From positions 868,001 to 932,000 of the forward strand of contig NZ_JACCIU010000001.1 in NCBI RefSeq assembly GCF_019303535.1: a DNA stretch of 64,000 nucleotides, in the 5' to 3' direction. A program made the position numbers and the translations under genes. Each line of letters opens with the position of its first letter. Position 1 is the first letter of the stretch. The notes beneath the pieces are model-generated. The model ran no database searches, was not told where the DNA came from, and was given only the letters and a program-made list of their open reading frames with translations. The stretch is from Lactobacillus sp. Sy-1 (lineage in GTDB: Bacteria > Bacillota > Bacilli > Lactobacillales > Lactobacillaceae). This document shows, one piece after another, positions 46,176 to 59,930 of this stretch.

Positions 46176-46177
46176 AT

Positions 46178-46208
46178 AAAGGATGGGTAATTACTCATCC
46201 TTTATTTT
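46178..46208 (+). terminator. Palindromic hairpin before uppS
   Basis: AAAGGATGGGTAA (46178-46190) is directly followed by TTACTCATCCTTT (46191-46203), complementary except for one G-T pair, then TTTATTTT. It most simply ends the pyrH-frr transcript. Confidence 0.7.
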
Positions 46209-50882: not shown

Positions 50883-53800
50883 TTGAATAAACACGAGCTT
50901 TTTGAAAAATTATTAAATCAATTGGAGTTAGCTGATTATCAGGATGCGGATTGCTTTAAAAATGCTGAAATTAAACAGTTAGAAGTTCACACCCAAACTA
51001 AGGGCTGGCATTTTAAATTTTACTTTTTAAAACAGCTGCCGTTTAACGTATTTAATGATTTTGTGCACCGCTTGATTACGACTTTTGGGCCATTTGCAAG
51101 GGTTAGCTTTGAAATTGAAGTTGCTCAGCCAAAATTAGATAGTCACTTGGTTAGGGCTTATTGGGACTGGGTGGTAAACAATAGTGGTTTAAATTCAATG
51201 ATGGCTAAGCAAATTTGTGATGCTAGTGTTCCTTCGGTTGAAGACCACCGGGTGAACCTAGTTGCTGAAAATGAAATCATTAAGGACTTTTTGGTAAATA
51301 CCGCTCTTGGTCGAATTGAAGAACGTTTTCAAGCCTGTGGGTTTCCTCGGTTTTCAATTCATACCTTCGTCGACCAAAGTGAAACTCAGGCTAAGATTAA
51401 GGAATTCAAGGATAATAAGGAACAAACCGATGCTGAAATCGCTAAAAAGGCGGTTGCAGCAATTAAACAGGCAAATGAAAAACGGGCTACCAAGAGCAGT
51501 GCGGCCCCTAAAACCAACGGTCCGGTTATTTTTGGGAAGGCAATTAGTGACGATGCAGATGTTACCAAGCTAATTGACGTTACCCAAGAGGAACGTTCAG
51601 TAGTGTTAAACGGATTTGTTTTCGATAAGGAAGTCCGGGCCCTTAGGTCTGGCCGGCAGTTATTAATCTTTAAGGTGACCGATTTTAGTTCCTCTATTGT
51701 GGTTAAAAAATTCTCCAGAAACGAACAGGATGAGGCCCAATTTGAAGCAATTCAAAAGGGGGCTTGGTTAAAGCTACGGGGAAGTGTGCAAGAGGACAAT
51801 TACACCCATGAACTGACCATGAATGCCTTTGATATTAATACGACTACCCATGCTGAACGAAAAGATACCGCAGATGAAAAACGGGTCGAACTACACCTTC
51901 ACACGAATATGAGTCAAATGGATGCAATTGATGGAATCGATGCGTTTGCGAAACGGGCTAAAGACTGGGGCCATCGCGCAATTGCGATTACTGACCATTC
52001 TGCATTGCAGGGATTTCCAGCTGCCTATAGTGCGGGGCAAAAGAACGGGTTAAAGATGATTTACGGTGTAGAAGCAAACGTTGTCGATGATGGGATGGAA
52101 ATTGGGTTCAATAATCAACACGTGGATTTAAAGAATGCAACCTACGTGGTTTTTGATATCGAAACGACCGGACTGTCAGCCATTTACGATAAAATTATTG
52201 AAGTTTCTGCTGTTAAGATGGTGCACGATAACGTTGTTGATCAATTTGAAGAATTTATTGATCCTGGATTTCATTTAAGTGAATTTACTACCAACCTAAC
52301 TTCGATTACCGATGATATGGTACGGGGTTCTAAGTCCGAAGAAACCGTCCTAAAGTTATTCCGTGAATTTTGCGGCGATGCAATTGTAGTTGGCCATAAC
52401 GTTACATTTGACGTTGGCTTTATGAACGTTGGTTATGAACGCTATGGGATGAGTAAGATTGAAAACCCCATTATTGATACGCTACCGCTGGCCCGCTTCT
52501 TATACCCGAACCTAAAGAGTTACCGGTTAAACACCCTTGCTAAGAAATTTGGGGTCAACCTGGAACACCACCACCGGGCAGTTTACGATGCTGAAAGTAC
52601 CGGTCATTTGAACTACCTCTTTTTGAAGGAGGCCGAGGACCGTTACGGGATTCAATACCAAGATCAACTAAATGATCACATGACGGAACACAGCGCATAC
52701 AAACACGCGCGGCCGTTTCACGTGACACTACTAGCACAAACCCAAGCGGGCTTAAAGAACCTCTTTAAGTTAGTTTCGCTTTCTAACGTTGAGTATTTTT
52801 ACCGGGTGCCTAGAATTCCCCGGAGTCAGTTAGTAAAGTATCGTGATGGAATATTAGTCGGGTCTGCGTGTGCATCCGGGGAAGTTTTCACGGCAATGGT
52901 TCAAAAGGGAATTGATGAAGCACGGGAAAAGGCTAAGTTTTACGACTATTTAGAAGTGCAACCGCAAGCCAATTACCAGCCATTGATTGACTCGCAATTC
53001 ATTCACGATCGAAAGCATCTCCATGAAATTATTAATAACATGGTTCAATTGGGCGAAGAGCTAGATAAACCGGTGGTGGCCACTGGGGACGCCCATTATG
53101 TTGACCCCCATGAGTACATCTATCGCAAAATTTTGATTCATTCCCAGGGGGGTGCTAACCCGCTTAGCCGGCAAAAACTACCGGAAGTTCAGTTCCACAC
53201 TACCGATGAAATGCTAGCTGACTTCAGTTACCTGGGTGAGCAACGGGCTAAGCAGATCGTTATAACCAACACCAACGTGGTGGCTGATATGGTTGATGAT
53301 GATATTCGACCGGTTAAGGATAAGCTATATACTCCCCACATTGATGGGGCGGAGGATGAAATAAAGACCCTTACGTATACTAAGGCTTACGACTACTACG
53401 GAGATCCGCTTCCCGACCTAGTTAAAAAACGGGTTGATCGAGAATTAAAAAGTATTATTGGAAATGGATTCTCGGTTATCTATTTAATTGCGCAAAAATT
53501 AGTTTTTAAGAGTAATAAGGATGGGTATCTGGTTGGTTCCCGGGGGTCAGTGGGGTCCAGTCTAGTTGCTACCATGGCTGGGATTACTGAGGTGAATCCA
53601 CTGCCACCACATTACCGATGTCCAAAGTGTAAGTACTCACACTTCTATACCAAGGGAGAGTATTCATCTGGATACGATTTGCCGAGAAAGCAGTGTCCTA
53701 AGTGTGGAACTGAAATGATTGGAGATGGCCAAAACATTCCATTTGAAACTTTCCTAGGATTCAAGGGAAACAAGGTCCCAGATATTGATTTGAACTTCTC

Positions 53801-55208
53801 TGGTGACTATCAGCCAATTGCCCATAACTACATGAAGGTCTTGTTTGGCGAGGACAACGTTTATCGAGCGGGAACGATTGGAACGGTTGCTGATAAAACG
53901 GCCTACGGTTATGTTAAGGCCTACGAACGGGATACCGAACAAAATATTCGTTCGGCAGAAGTCGACCGTCTAGCTCAAGGCGACGTTGGCGTTAAGCGAA
54001 CCACTGGCCAACATCCAGCTGGAATTATCATTGTGCCGAGCGACATGGATATTTATGACTTTACCCCAATTCAATACCCAGCTAATGATCAACAAGCAGA
54101 ATGGGAAACGACTCACTTTGATTTCCATTCGATCCATGATAATATTTTGAAAATGGATATCTTAGGACATGATGATCCAACGATGATTCGGACCCTCCAA
54201 GATCTATCTGGAATTGATCCACAAACCATTCCGATGGATGATCAAGGGGTGATGTCAATTTTCTCAGGGACTGAAATTTTAGGGGTTACTCCCGAACAGA
54301 TTCAGTCCAAGACCGGAACCCTCGGGGTGCCAGAGTTTGGAACTAAGTTCGTCCGGGGAATGTTGGAACAAACCCACCCTAAAAATTATTCTCAGCTACT
54401 ACAAATTTCAGGTTTATCACATGGAACTGACGTTTGGTTAGGAAATGCTGATGAAATCATTAAGAACGGGACCGCTACGATTGCAAACGTAATTGGGTGT
54501 CGTGATAATATTATGACCGATTTGATCAACTGGGGTTTGGATTCAGAAACATCCTTCCAAATTATGGAATCAGTGCGGAAGGGGCGTGGAATCAAGGATG
54601 AGTGGCGAAAGGCCATGAACGAAGCCAATATTCCCGATTGGTACATCCAGTCCTGTCTCAAAATTAAGTACATGTTCCCACGGGCCCATGCGGCGGCTTA
54701 CGTTTTAATGGCCCTGCGGGTTGCTTACTTCAAAGTGTACTTCCCATTGGTCTACTACGCTGCTTACTTCTCCATTCGTGCTGATGACTTTGACGTGGTT
54801 GCGATGGCCAGCGGCAAGGAATCTGTCAAAGAATCGATGAAGGCAATTCAAGACCAGGGTAACGATGCGTCCGCAAAGGATAAAAATCTGCTAACCGTTT
54901 TGGAACTAGCAAATGAAATGCTAGAACGTGGCTTTGAATTTGAAATGATTGATTTAAAACGGTCTGATGCTGATAAGTGGTTAATCGAAGGGAACCAACT
55001 TTTAGCGCCATTCCGTGCCATTCCAGGATTAGGATTGAACGTTGCAAAGCAAATCGTTGCTGCACGTGAAGACAAGGCCTTTATTTCAAAGGAAGATCTT
55101 GCTAAACGGGGAAAGGTTTCGAAGAAGATTGTTGATTTTATGGATGAAAATGGAGTCTTAAAAGGGTTACCAGATGAAAACCAGTTAAGTTTATTCGATA
55201 TGCTATGA
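50883..55208 (+). CDS. polC: DNA polymerase III PolC-type alpha subunit
   Basis: A 1441-residue replicative polymerase of Gram-positives. In order: N-terminal domain, OB-fold (about 240-330), PHP domain (first half [15 protein letters not shown], about 337), inserted DEDDh proofreading exonuclease (about 420-590; [30 protein letters not shown]), second PHP half, then the polymerase domain with a zinc finger ([10 protein letters not shown] and CPKCGTEM), the catalytic [13 protein letters not shown] and the C-terminal HhH region. It ends QLSLFDML, a clamp-binding motif. The start is TTG 50883 after AAGGGAG. A new promoter begins at its stop codon. Confidence 0.97.
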
Positions 55209-55209
55209 T

Positions 55210-55238
55210 TTGAGTTTATCACTTATTTATGGTATATT
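55210..55238 (+). promoter_or_regulatory. Promoter for the rimP-nusA-infB operon
   Basis: TTGAGT (55210-55215), 17 bases, TATATT (55233-55238) with TG one base upstream. It starts two bases after the polC stop. Confidence 0.7.
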
Positions 55239-55262
55239 TAGTTAAGTAATTAATACTCGGTT

Positions 55263-55295
55263 AAGGGAGTGAGCAGGGATGCTCACTCTTTTTAT
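55263..55295 (+). terminator. Terminator-like hairpin in the rimP leader
   Basis: GAGTGAGC (55267-55274) pairs perfectly with GCTCACTC (55281-55288), extended by two G-T and two A-T pairs, loop AGGGAT, then a T tract. It lies between the promoter and rimP, so it can act as an attenuator or as the polC terminator. Confidence 0.8.
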
Positions 55296-55323
55296 TGGAT
55301 TTAATAGGAGGTATGCATACAAA

Positions 55324-55800
55324 TTGAGTAACGTTCCCGAGATTGTGAAAGATGTCTTAACACCAATTTTAAATGAACATCACTTTGAGTTGTTCGACAT
55401 TGAATACGTTAAAGAAAGCCAAAATTGGTATCTGCGGGTTTATATTGATAAACCTGCTGGAATTACCATTGAGGATTGTGCTATCATTAGCGATCAATTA
55501 GGTGAAGAATTAGATGCAATGGATCCTGATCCAATCCCACAAGCTTATTATTTAGAAGTATCATCTCCAGGTGCAGAACGGCCCTTGAGAAACGAAAAAG
55601 AAATTAGAGAAGCAATTGGTAACTACATTAACGTTTCGCTGTACTACCCAGTCAAGCAAAACAAGGTGTACGAAGGAACTTTAAAAGCGGTTACCGAAGA
55701 TAATGATTTAGTAATTGAGTATAATGATATGAGTGTATTCAGAGAACTCACGATTCCCTCAAAGGCAATTGCTAAAGTCCGACTTGCAATTAAGTTTTAG
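55324..55800 (+). CDS. rimP: Ribosome maturation factor RimP
   Basis: A 158-residue 30S maturation factor. The family core is EVSSPGAERPLRNEKE, preceded by LRVYIDKPAGITIEDCAIISDQLGEELD. I start at TTG 55324, the first plausible codon after AGGAGG (55306-55311), though the 12-base spacing is long; an ATG at 55313 is out of frame. It is the first gene of the nusA-infB operon, as in most bacteria. Confidence 0.93.
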   Translation: MSNVPEIVKDVLTPILNEHHFELFDIEYVKESQNWYLRVYIDKPAGITIEDCAIISDQLGEELDAMDPDPIPQAYYLEVSSPGAERPLRNEKEIREAIGNYINVSLYYPVKQNKVYEGTLKAVTEDNDLVIEYNDMSVFRELTIPSKAIAKVRLAIKF

Positions 55801-55817: not shown

Positions 55818-56915
55818 ATGAGTAAAGAATTATTGGGTGCTTTTGATGCCCTAGAAAAAGAAAAGGGTATCAAGAAGGAAACCATCATCGATGCCTTAGA
55901 GGCAGCTTTAACATCTGCTTATAAGCGTAATTATGGCCAATCACAAAATGTAGATGTAGAATTTGATGATAGGAAGGGCGATATTCACGTTTATGCTGTT
56001 AAGAAGATTGTGGATGTGGTTGAAGATCCCCAAACTGAATATAGCATTAAGGATGCTCTTCAAATTAGCCATGGTTATGAAGTTGGAGACGATATTAAAA
56101 TTGAGGTAACTCCTAAAAACTTCGGTCGAATTGCCGCCCAAACTGCTAAGCAAGTAATTATGCAACGGGTTCGAGAAGCCGAACGGGAAATGGTTTATAA
56201 CCAATTTAGCCAGTACCAAGATGAATTAATTACTGGTGAAGTGGAACGGGCTGATAACCGCTTTGTTTATATTAACTTAGGTAAGGTTGAAGCGGTTATG
56301 CCAACTAGTAACCAAATGCCAAATGAAGAATACCGGCCCCAGGAAAAAATCAAGGTTTACGTTACTAAGGTTGAAAATGCTTCCAAGGGACCTCAAGTAT
56401 TCGTTAGCCGGACCGCCCCTGGACTATTGAAACGGTTATTTGAACAAGAAGTTCCTGAAATCTATGATGGAACAGTTGAAATTGTTTCAATTGCCCGGGA
56501 AGCTGGCGATCGGGCTAAGGTGGCCGTTCGTTCTAATAACCCAGATATTGATCCAGTTGGAACCACCGTTGGGCCAAAGGGACAACGGGTCCAAACAATC
56601 GTTAATGAACTCGGTGGCGAAAACATGGACATCGTTGAATGGACCGATGATAAGGCGAAATTTATTGCAAACGCCTTAAACCCATCTGAAGTAGTGGATG
56701 TTATTTTTGATCCTGAAAATGACCAGGCATGTACCGTAATTGTTCCTGATTACCAATTATCACTTGCAATTGGGAAACGCGGTCAAAACGCTAGATTAGC
56801 TGCTAAGTTAACTGGGTTTAAAATCGATATTAAATCGGAATCTGAAGCAGACGAGAATATCTATGATAATAACATTGCTGCTGAAGACCCTGATGACAAC
56901 GAAAACGCTGATTAA
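55818..56915 (+). CDS. nusA: Transcription factor NusA
   Basis: A 365-residue pausing, termination and antitermination factor that binds RNA polymerase and nascent RNA. It has an N-terminal polymerase-binding domain (1-125), S1 domain (about 135-200; GEVERADNRFVYINLGKVEAVMP), and two KH domains (about 230-345; VGPKGQRVQTIVNELGGENMDIVEW and AIGKRGQNARLAAKLTG). As usual for Firmicutes, it lacks the acidic repeats of E. coli NusA. The ending is acidic. AAAGGAGAATT precedes ATG 55818. Confidence 0.96.
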   Translation: MSKELLGAFDALEKEKGIKKETIIDALEAALTSAYKRNYGQSQNVDVEFDDRKGDIHVYAVKKIVDVVEDPQTEYSIKDALQISHGYEVGDDIKIEVTPKNFGRIAAQTAKQVIMQRVREAEREMVYNQFSQYQDELITGEVERADNRFVYINLGKVEAVMPTSNQMPNEEYRPQEKIKVYVTKVENASKGPQVFVSRTAPGLLKRLFEQEVPEIYDGTVEIVSIAREAGDRAKVAVRSNNPDIDPVGTTVGPKGQRVQTIVNELGGENMDIVEWTDDKAKFIANALNPSEVVDVIFDPENDQACTVIVPDYQLSLAIGKRGQNARLAAKLTGFKIDIKSESEADENIYDNNIAAEDPDDNENAD

Positions 56916-57542: not shown

Positions 57543-59930
57543 ATGGGTAAAAAGCGTATTTATGAATTAGCTAAAGAACTCAATGTTACTAGTAAGCAAC
57601 TAATTAGTAGCGCTAATAGTAAGGGTATTTCGGTTCATAACCATATGTCTACGATTGATGATAGCCAAGAAAAACAGATCAGAGCAGCTTTAAAAGGGAG
57701 TTCTAACCAACCAGCCAGTCATGCTAATGCAAAGTCACAGTCAAATGGTGGTCAACACCATACTAATTCCCAAAACCGGAATAGTGAAAAGCGGACTGCT
57801 AAGAATGACCATAAGCAAGGTGAAAGAACTAACTCTAACAAGTCGAATAGTAATGCTGCCAAAAACCACCAGGGACAAGCTGGTAATAATCGGAGCAATG
57901 CTAGTCATAGTAATAGCCATTCTAATAACCACCGCATTAACGCTAGCGGTGCGAACAACAACAATAACAACAGTCATTCCAATAACCGGAATACTAACAC
58001 CAATAATAACGGTGGCAATGGTAATTCGAACGGGTTCCATAAGAATAACCGTAAAAACAAAAAGAAGTTTAACAAGCGAAATAATAACTTCGGCAATAAG
58101 TACACTAAGAACCAACGAATTCGCCAAATTCATAAGCATAACGATGCTCCTAAGCGAAAGGATCATCCGCTTCCAGAAGTGTTAGAATACACTGATGGAA
58201 TGAATGCTCAAGAAATTGGTAAGGTTCTGCACCGTGAACCAGCTGAAATCGTTAAAAAGTTGTTTATGTTGGGTGTAATGGTTAACCAAAACAAATCACT
58301 TGATAAGGAAACCATCGAACTCTTGGCAGCTGATTACGGGATTGGAGCTAAGGAAAAAGAAGAAGTTAACGTTTCTGACCTTGATAAGCTCTTTGACGAA
58401 GAAGAACACAATACCGCCTACCAAGAAAATCGGCCGCCAGTGGTTACCATTATGGGACACGTTGACCACGGGAAGACAACGCTATTGGATTATCTGAGAC
58501 ACTCCCACATTACTTCTGGTGAAGCTGGTGGGATTACCCAGGGAATTGGGGCCTACCAAGTTCAACACGATCACAAGACGATTACATTCTTGGATACACC
58601 AGGACATGCGGCCTTTACTGCAATGCGGGCCCGCGGTGCTGACATTACTGATATTACCATTTTGGTGGTTGCTGCAGATGATGGGGTAATGCCACAAACG
58701 GTTGAAGCGATTAACCATGCCAAGGCCGCAAAGACACCAATTATCGTGGCCATTAATAAAATTGATAAACCGGGTGCCAACCCTGACCACGTTACTGAAC
58801 AGCTTAGTAACTACGGTTTAATCCCAGAAGACTGGGGTGGGGATACCATTTTCGTTAAGATTTCAGCTAAGTTTGGGAATAACGTGGATGAACTATTGGA
58901 CATGATCCTATTACAAGCTGAAGTGATGGAATTAAAGGCTAATCCGAAGCAAAATGCTGCTGGATCAGTAATTGAAGCCCGCTTAGACCGTGGCAAGGGA
59001 ACTGTTGCAACCCTCTTGGTTCAACAAGGGACCATGCACGTTGGGGATCCGATCGTAGTTGGTGATACCTTTGGCCGGGTTCGGACGATGGTTAATGAAC
59101 ACAACCAAGAAATGAAGGAAGCAACGCCTTCTACGCCGGTTGGAATTACTGGATTGAATGACGTTCCTGAAGCTGGGGACCGTTTCATTGTCTTTGACGA
59201 TGAAAAGACCGCTAGAACGGTTGGTGAAAAGCGGGCCGAAGAAGCGAAGGAAAACGACCGTCGGCAAACTAACCACGTTACGCTTGATAACCTGTTTGAT
59301 TCCCTTAAGGAAGGTGAAATGAAGCAAGTTGATATTATCATTAAGGCTGACGTGCAAGGATCCGTAGAAGCACTTTCATCCAGTCTTCAAAAGATTGAAG
59401 TTGAAGGCGTTAAGGTCAACATCATTCATACTGGAGTTGGGGCCATCAACGAAAGTGACGTTGCCCTAGCAGAAGCAAGTAACGCCATTATCATTGGATT
59501 TAACGTTCGCCCTACACCGCAAGCAAAGGCGCAAGCGGAAAGTGACAGCGTTGATATTCGACTCCACCAAGTTATTTACGATGCGATTGATGAAGTTGAA
59601 TCAGCAATGAAGGGGCTTTTGGAACCAACCTACAAGGAAGAAGTTACTGGACAGGTTGAAGTTAGAGAAATCTACAAAGCTTCTAAGGTTGGAACGATTG
59701 CCGGTGGAATGGTAATTTCTGGTTACATTAGCCGTGATAGTAAGGTGCGGTTAATTAGAGATAACGTCGTGGTTTATGATGGTGAACTAGGTAGTTTGAA
59801 GCGGTTCAAAGACGACGCGAAGAGTGTTAAGCAAGGATTTGAATGTGGGTTAACCATTGAAAATTACAATGATATCAAGGTTAACGATGTCATTGAAGCT
59901 TACGTAATGAAGGAAGTTCCAGTCGAATAA
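57543..59930 (+). CDS. infB: Translation initiation factor IF-2
   Basis: A 795-residue GTPase that places fMet-tRNA on the 30S subunit. The N-terminal small helical domain ([19 protein letters not shown], 1-50) is followed by a low-complexity linker (52-187) extremely rich in Asn, His, Ser and Gly; residues 101-187 contain 33 Asn of 87. Then comes the second IF2-N domain (about 210-260) and the G domain (G1 GHVDHGKTT near 304-312, G3 [10 protein letters not shown]4 NKID), and domains II-IV with [14 protein letters not shown] and the C2 fMet-binding end. GGATAGTG precedes ATG 57543. Confidence 0.97.

Follow-up and report, generated by a model that had tools for sequence, protein, structure and literature searches.

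Introduction

A NusA-autoregulated attenuator of Bacillus subtilis nusA was reportedly described by Mondal et al. in 2016. A widespread "rimP-leader", called the most ubiquitous attenuator and having NusA as the best candidate for its regulator, is presented in the accessible part of Naville and Gautheret (2010; PMC2965389). For Streptococcus agalactiae, the available sections of a 2015 publication report a short RNA whose 3' end lies upstream of rimP, 31 nt beyond the start site of the operon itself, and propose feedback by NusA (PMC4448216). According to the accessible text of a 2025 review, NusA-stimulated termination in the 5' leader is reported to control nusA in B. subtilis, NusA is essential in both E. 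coli and B. subtilis, and it acts at most B. subtilis intrinsic terminators, of which it stimulates about 75% (PMC12288461). Control of the NusA level therefore matters for global gene expression. With so many B. subtilis terminators responding to NusA, a sensitivity to it would not set the leader studied below apart. Interrupted distal tails have been described for NusA- and NusG-dependent B. subtilis terminators in a further publication, which also gives a distance of 7-9 nt from hairpin to 3' end; the available part of its text contains no passage on autoregulation, ylxS or rimP (PMC8060035). The main text of a Streptococcus pneumoniae 3'-end paper mentions none of rimP, nusA and infB (PMC6296669).

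Here we compare with these systems the leader of the rimP-nusA-infB operon of Lactobacillus sp. Sy-1. The stretch of 64,000 nucleotides that was analysed is referred to as the window, and positions are counted from its first letter. Judged from sequence comparison, this leader holds a real and conserved attenuator, one lineage's version of a type already described.

Materials and Methods

The basic sample of 82 rimP leaders was made up of 80 loci, kept as the best of 573 relatives (NusA identity of 57-82% over the best segment), and two genomes of the window's own genus; the window's own leader (L082) is counted in it, as are L012 and L013, which are strains of a single species. For alignment A1 the window was combined with 73 of the 82 loci. 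Terminators were scored with an automatic finder at a cut-off score of at least 18, with 246 windows in or just after nusA as controls, and matches to the covariance model R1 were counted at E <= 0.001. The presence of polC upstream was checked by tblastn with the C-terminal 400 aa of PolC as the query.

Bacilli-wide and further order loci brought the master set to 215. Hairpins could be anchored in 198 of these loci, which represent 183 unique leaders (129 Lactobacillales-type and 54 Bacillales-type). Anchoring failed for 17 loci, among them ten Leuconostoc- or Weissella-like ones, several with sub-threshold tails and one with no match to rimP or nusA. The choice of anchor patterns biases these counts towards GAGTG. 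Since pairs other than the standard ones and tails not rich in T are ignored by the finders, stems with mismatches and poor tails are reported too rarely. For the phylum, 61 genomes were searched and the 29 best-scoring loci read; one Bacilli genome among them had already been counted (L269).

Results

The leader and its operon

A leader of 115 bases separates the end of polC (stop codon TGA, 55206-55208) from the rimP start, which is most likely the TTG at 55324 when read against the sequence. Within this leader lies a promoter-like sequence followed by a hairpin with an interrupted tail (Table 1), and the arrangement and its position before rimP are conserved. The name polC comes from sequence recognition and the earlier note and the name rimP from that note and the gene order, and both are to be taken as probable.

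Table 1. Coordinates of the rimP leader elements and neighbouring genes in the window
Feature	Position	Strand	Basis or remark
polC (DNA polymerase III, PolC-type)	50883-55208	+	ORF of 1441 aa; 5' neighbour of the leader
Extended -10 promoter	55210-55238	+	Sequence; recurs before the stem in relatives
-35 element TTGAGT	55210-55215	+	
TG of the extended -10	55230-55231	+	
-10 element TATATT	55233-55238	+	
Predicted transcription start	about 55244-55246	+	Inferred from spacing
Short 5' leader GUAAUUAAUACUCGGUUAAGG ahead of the stem	55246-55266	+	Read from sequence
Core terminator hairpin GAGTGAGCA-GGGA-TGCTCACTC	55267-55288	+	Sequence, folding, conservation
Short interrupted U-tract TTTTTATTGG	55289-55298	+	Read from sequence
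Predicted 3' end of the short RNA	about 55295-55297	+	From the hairpin-to-end distance in the accessible text of PMC8060035
rimP Shine-Dalgarno AGGAGG	55306-55311	+	Read from sequence
rimP, probable TTG start	55324-55800	+	ORF; start judged by eye against relatives' leaders
nusA (termination factor, proposed repressor), second gene	55818-56915	+	ORF of 365 aa
infB (IF-2), further operon gene	57543-59930	+	ORF of 795 aa; sequence recognition and gene order

An ATG within the hairpin also reads open and in frame with rimP (window 55279-55323). It was considered as the rimP start and rejected: a hairpin ATG occurs in only 42 of 80 leaders and is open in frame in 12 of the 80 (the window's own included), and its occurrence here is probably due to chance.

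Promoter and hairpin

The earlier note had placed an extended -10 promoter at the polC stop and a terminator between it and rimP. The promoter is present as TTGAGT-17-TATATT with TG before the -10 element, immediately 3' of the stop codon. By itself such a site is unremarkable, as a single-sequence scan at 9 of 12 matches returned 41 sites in 19 kb against 46.5 expected and thus no excess; a lenient terminator pattern scan likewise was not significant (13 found, 16.6 expected). Since neither scan rose above chance, comparison between genomes was relied on. Of the 183 unique leaders, 170 have an extended -10 element scoring at least 10.5 within the 50 bases that precede the stem, at a median distance of 27 bases from it; shuffled sequences show one in 22% of cases, and 183 windows taken from rimP coding sequence in 7%. 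This recurrence supports the promoter.

The full hairpin comprises 13 pairs (55263-55292) when G.U pairs and A-U pairs into the tail are counted. Its folding energy, calculated over 55258-55300, is -21.4 kcal/mol (z = -6.75), a value equalled by none of 200 shuffles. The case for the hairpin rests on this energy and on conservation rather than on the pattern scan, and on these grounds the proposed terminator, with its U-tract, was confirmed. Judged by its folding, this is a stable-looking terminator and not a weak one, which counts against reading it as a NusA attenuator.

Occurrence of the terminator

Of the 82 rimP leaders, 80, among them that of the window, have a terminator scoring at least 18; none of the 246 control windows has one. 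One of the 80 (L066) scored on another hairpin; by eye this leader and the two misses (L056, L063) carry a related or imperfect one. The R1 model matched 45 of 61 genomes of the family and 167 of 246 of the order. When RimP was searched for in the 16 R1-negative family genomes and three others, rimP was found in 19 of 19, and in every one of these a related hairpin precedes it, as recognized by eye or by the finder. The hairpins of these 19 are often divergent (GAGTGGCC, GAGCGGG, AAGTGAGC). In the phylum sample, a hairpin with a T-rich tail was found within the 600 bases searched in 29 of 29 loci, a count that has neither a control nor a check for rimP; three of these loci (L272, L274, L284) appear unrelated. 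Two order-level loci of one family (L229, L230), which we guess are probably streptococci, have another leader stem, GGCGAAGAG-like and lacking GAGTG.

The exact stem occurs once in the window's own genome, with no second copy. Some 30 of the order genomes listed carry two or three R1 matches. Six extra matches were read (L240-L245), one of which (L244) lacks such a stem, and re-searching 14 genomes gave 20 extra matches. Nine of these are the rimP site matched on its opposite strand; the remaining 11 lie elsewhere (31-38 bits). The ten extra-match loci that were read are mostly ordinary terminators 3' of the end of an open frame; one (L310) has no such hairpin at its centre. Copies acting elsewhere were thus rejected, the extra matches read being mostly ordinary terminators or the opposite strand of the rimP site. 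Two extra matches (L311, L318) stand shortly ahead of another start-like site, and one of them follows a tRNA-like end.

A strong terminator (46176-46205) also lies directly before uppS (ATG 46229) in the window, and 16 of 30 Lactobacillaceae, the window's own included, have terminators in the uppS leader. About seven of these share by eye a stem of the AAGGATGAG..CTCATCCTT kind. The uppS terminator may represent another leader attenuator of this gene neighbourhood. With a recurring stem of its own in part of the family, this leader was not a clean neutral control for stem conservation and was dropped as such.

Conserved stem and tail

Among the Bacilli sampled, the 5' arm of the stem, GAGUG, hardly varies. 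The stem begins with GAGTG in 172 of the 183 unique leaders, a count from an anchored search biased toward that motif, and in 76 of 80 leaders found without the anchor. In the uncontrolled phylum sample, GAGTG is present in 23 of 29 loci and GGG/CCC in 26 of 29.

Across the 183 leaders, pair 6 is A-U in 125, G-C in 57 and C-G in one, with zero G.U intermediates, and pair 8 takes several pair types; mismatches at these pairs could not show, as the finder counts only standard pairs, and the paired changes support the stem. Pair 4 is U-A in 134 leaders, U.G in 48 and C-G in only one. When a quick NusA tree was made for 80 loci, at least 10 changes between A and G were counted at its 3' partner and none at the 5' U. 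This pattern suggests that the 5' arm is kept for more than pairing, but it would equally be expected from avoidance of the stronger C-G pair. In Lactobacillales the top of the stem, GGGc/gCCC, is replaced by AGC/GCU through paired changes, and GAGUG is retained; leaders of the GAGTGGG type, with the GGG top, account for 51 of the 183.

Of 124 Lactobacillales-type leaders, 114 have a first U-run of exactly five, and of the 51 GAGTGGG-type leaders 34 have one of three; common descent contributes to this constancy. Position +6 of the same 124 tails is rarely T (6%), and position +9 is mostly G (80%). The window tail TTTTTATTGG has the interruption of the distal U-tract, a trait common to NusA-dependent terminators and not proof of dependence. 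The AUACU of the window's short 5' leader appears to recur elsewhere: of the 54 Bacillales-type leaders 21, and of the 129 Lactobacillales-type leaders 31, have ATACT within the 31 bases ahead of the stem (counts without a shuffle control).

Discussion

Because the published cases fit, we take the window leader to be, with good probability, a NusA-responsive transcription attenuator of the rimP-nusA-infB operon. Its start and stop points are predicted from spacing and from the hairpin-to-end distance, and its dependence on NusA we infer from the relatives and from the shape of the tail. RNA polymerase would start at about 55245, make some 20 bases and reach the terminator, whose U-tract is short and interrupted. 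The NusA encoded by the second gene would bind the elongating polymerase and raise the fraction that stops there, leaving a leader RNA of about 50 bases. With NusA scarce, read-through would increase and the operon would be expressed; with NusA plentiful, polymerases would stop. The same terminator would also halt read-through from polC. The feedback circuit that the earlier note had proposed, in which the operon reads through its own terminator, stands as far as its parts are concerned, since promoter, terminator and rimP-nusA are present and conserved; as an idea it had already been proposed (2010, 2015), and for B. subtilis it is presented as established.

The earlier note named two outcomes that would speak against such a circuit, namely a transcript that starts downstream of the hairpin and a hairpin at which only polC transcripts end, and both belong to the explanation that the hairpin is a plain 3' terminator of polC with the rimP operon starting elsewhere. 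The window polC does end about 55 bases before the hairpin, and tblastn found polC directly 5' in 49 of the 82 leaders. Only 12 bases, however, lie between the end of the U-run (55293) and the rimP Shine-Dalgarno sequence (from 55306), so that a rimP transcript carrying this sequence should have crossed the hairpin; no promoter fits into the space. In the other 33 leaders polC was not found directly 5', and there we saw another open frame, a divergent one (as in L012 and L013), a more distant polC (about 600 bases off in L032) or nothing upstream. As polC is not found directly upstream in these 33, the element goes with rimP and not with polC, and the notion that only polC transcripts end there is unsupported. 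The gene metY encodes a tRNA. A tRNA cluster with tRNA-Leu at its end precedes the hairpin in two genomes that belong to one genus (L157, 1352-1438; L163, 329-416), an order that recalls the E. coli metY-nusA-infB operon named in the available part of PMC4448216. The polC-terminator explanation is already largely refuted and we consider it very improbable. Even harder to credit is a competing antiterminator hairpin, in which an upstream ACTC would pair with the GAGT of the stem. Within the 24 nt that adjoin the stem on its 5' side, 28 of 129 Lactobacillales-type leaders do contain ACTC, where shuffles would give 5.3, as do 8 of 54 Bacillales-type leaders (2.6 expected), an excess that may, however, reflect shared descent. 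In 10 of 10 Leuconostoc-like leaders a helix of 6-8 bp with variable loops reaches the base of the terminator, yet the p values of single helices run from 0.02 to 0.18. In the complementarity test only 8 of 129 Lactobacillales-type leaders (median p 0.56) and 3 of 54 Bacillales-type leaders (median p 0.82) reached p <= 0.05. A general ACTC/GAGT antiterminator, persuasive by eye in several clades, was thus rejected as unsupported by shuffles; a clade-level helix of the ATTTACA/TGTAAAT type is left in L066, L154-L156, L159-L162, L164 and L165.

Two further explanations accept the terminator and dispute its sensor. A constitutive brake, with a fixed read-through that sets the operon level free of any sensor, would need a tuned fixed strength of the sort that the near-constant U-run could provide, and no general antiterminator was found by the complementarity test on the 183 leaders. 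We rate it as improbable, given that NusA acts on most B. subtilis intrinsic terminators and reportedly autoregulates there (accessible text of PMC12288461). Somewhat less improbable, but still unlikely, is feedback by another factor that reads the fixed arm GAGUG, such as RimP, NusG or another RNA-binding protein, with NusA not the specific sensor. The near-constancy of the arm in all three samples and the retained U at its fourth base fit such a reader, and the available text of Naville and Gautheret names RimP as a possible regulator as well (PMC2965389); against it, the fixed U may only reflect selection against a strong C-G pair at that place, and the E. coli and B. subtilis publications, in the parts accessible, point to NusA (PMC2965389, PMC4448216, PMC12288461).

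Responsiveness to NusA thus remains our preferred reading. A bolder form of it is possible, and we offer it tentatively: GAGUG would be a dedicated tag by which NusA or another operon product reads the nascent RNA and stops polymerase at this site to a much greater extent than at ordinary terminators, a tag kept across much of Bacillota and re-tuned in Lactobacillales, where GGG/CCC became AGC/GCU and the first U-run settled at five. If this were true, the leader would be a sequence-specific NusA switch. With about 50 bases, one near-invariant arm and a near-constant U-run, it is a compact, conserved test bed in which one can ask whether NusA recognizes the sequence of terminator RNA or the paused polymerase only.

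The gene context of the window leader is shared with Rfam RF01770 (rimP). The covariance model of that family is not among the matches of the window, where its gathering cut-off was not reached; among 200 Bacilli-class genomes none gave a match over the cut-off and three gave weaker ones, and among 14 control genomes only E. coli matched. In the literature searched, neither the Lactobacillales form nor a fixed GAGUG arm is described; some of these leaders may appear in the supplementary leader list of PMC2965389, which lay outside that search.

In summary, the window leader resembles the rimP-leader, as presented in the accessible text of PMC2965389, in having a terminator directly before rimP of rimP-nusA-infB, near the gene start and on the same strand, with a conserved stem sequence and, the clade-only helix aside, no visible larger element or antiterminator. 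Unlike the rimP-leader it lacks GGGc...gCCC, its upper stem being AGCA/TGCT (stem GAGTGAGCA/TGCTCACTC); the GAGUG base, unnamed in that text as far as available, is the part kept in the window. With the B. subtilis nusA attenuator, as far as it is described in the accessible literature, it shares a terminator in the 5' leader, and interrupted tails are also found in Bacillales-type leaders. Like the NusA-autoregulated attenuator, it appears to have its own promoter before the terminator; it differs from the B. subtilis one in the top of the stem and in a tail of UUUUUAUUGG, as opposed to mostly UUUC.. in GAGTGGG-type leaders. As in the leader of S. agalactiae gbs0413-gbs0418, in the part of that report available, a short RNA is predicted from the operon's own start and would end before rimP, at about 50 nt here and at 31 nt there; the two loci without GAGTG (L229, L230) are probably of the same family as S. 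agalactiae. The idea of NusA feedback appears sound and had been published before; what is new is the comparative description of this variant of the leader, together with a hint of sequence recognition.
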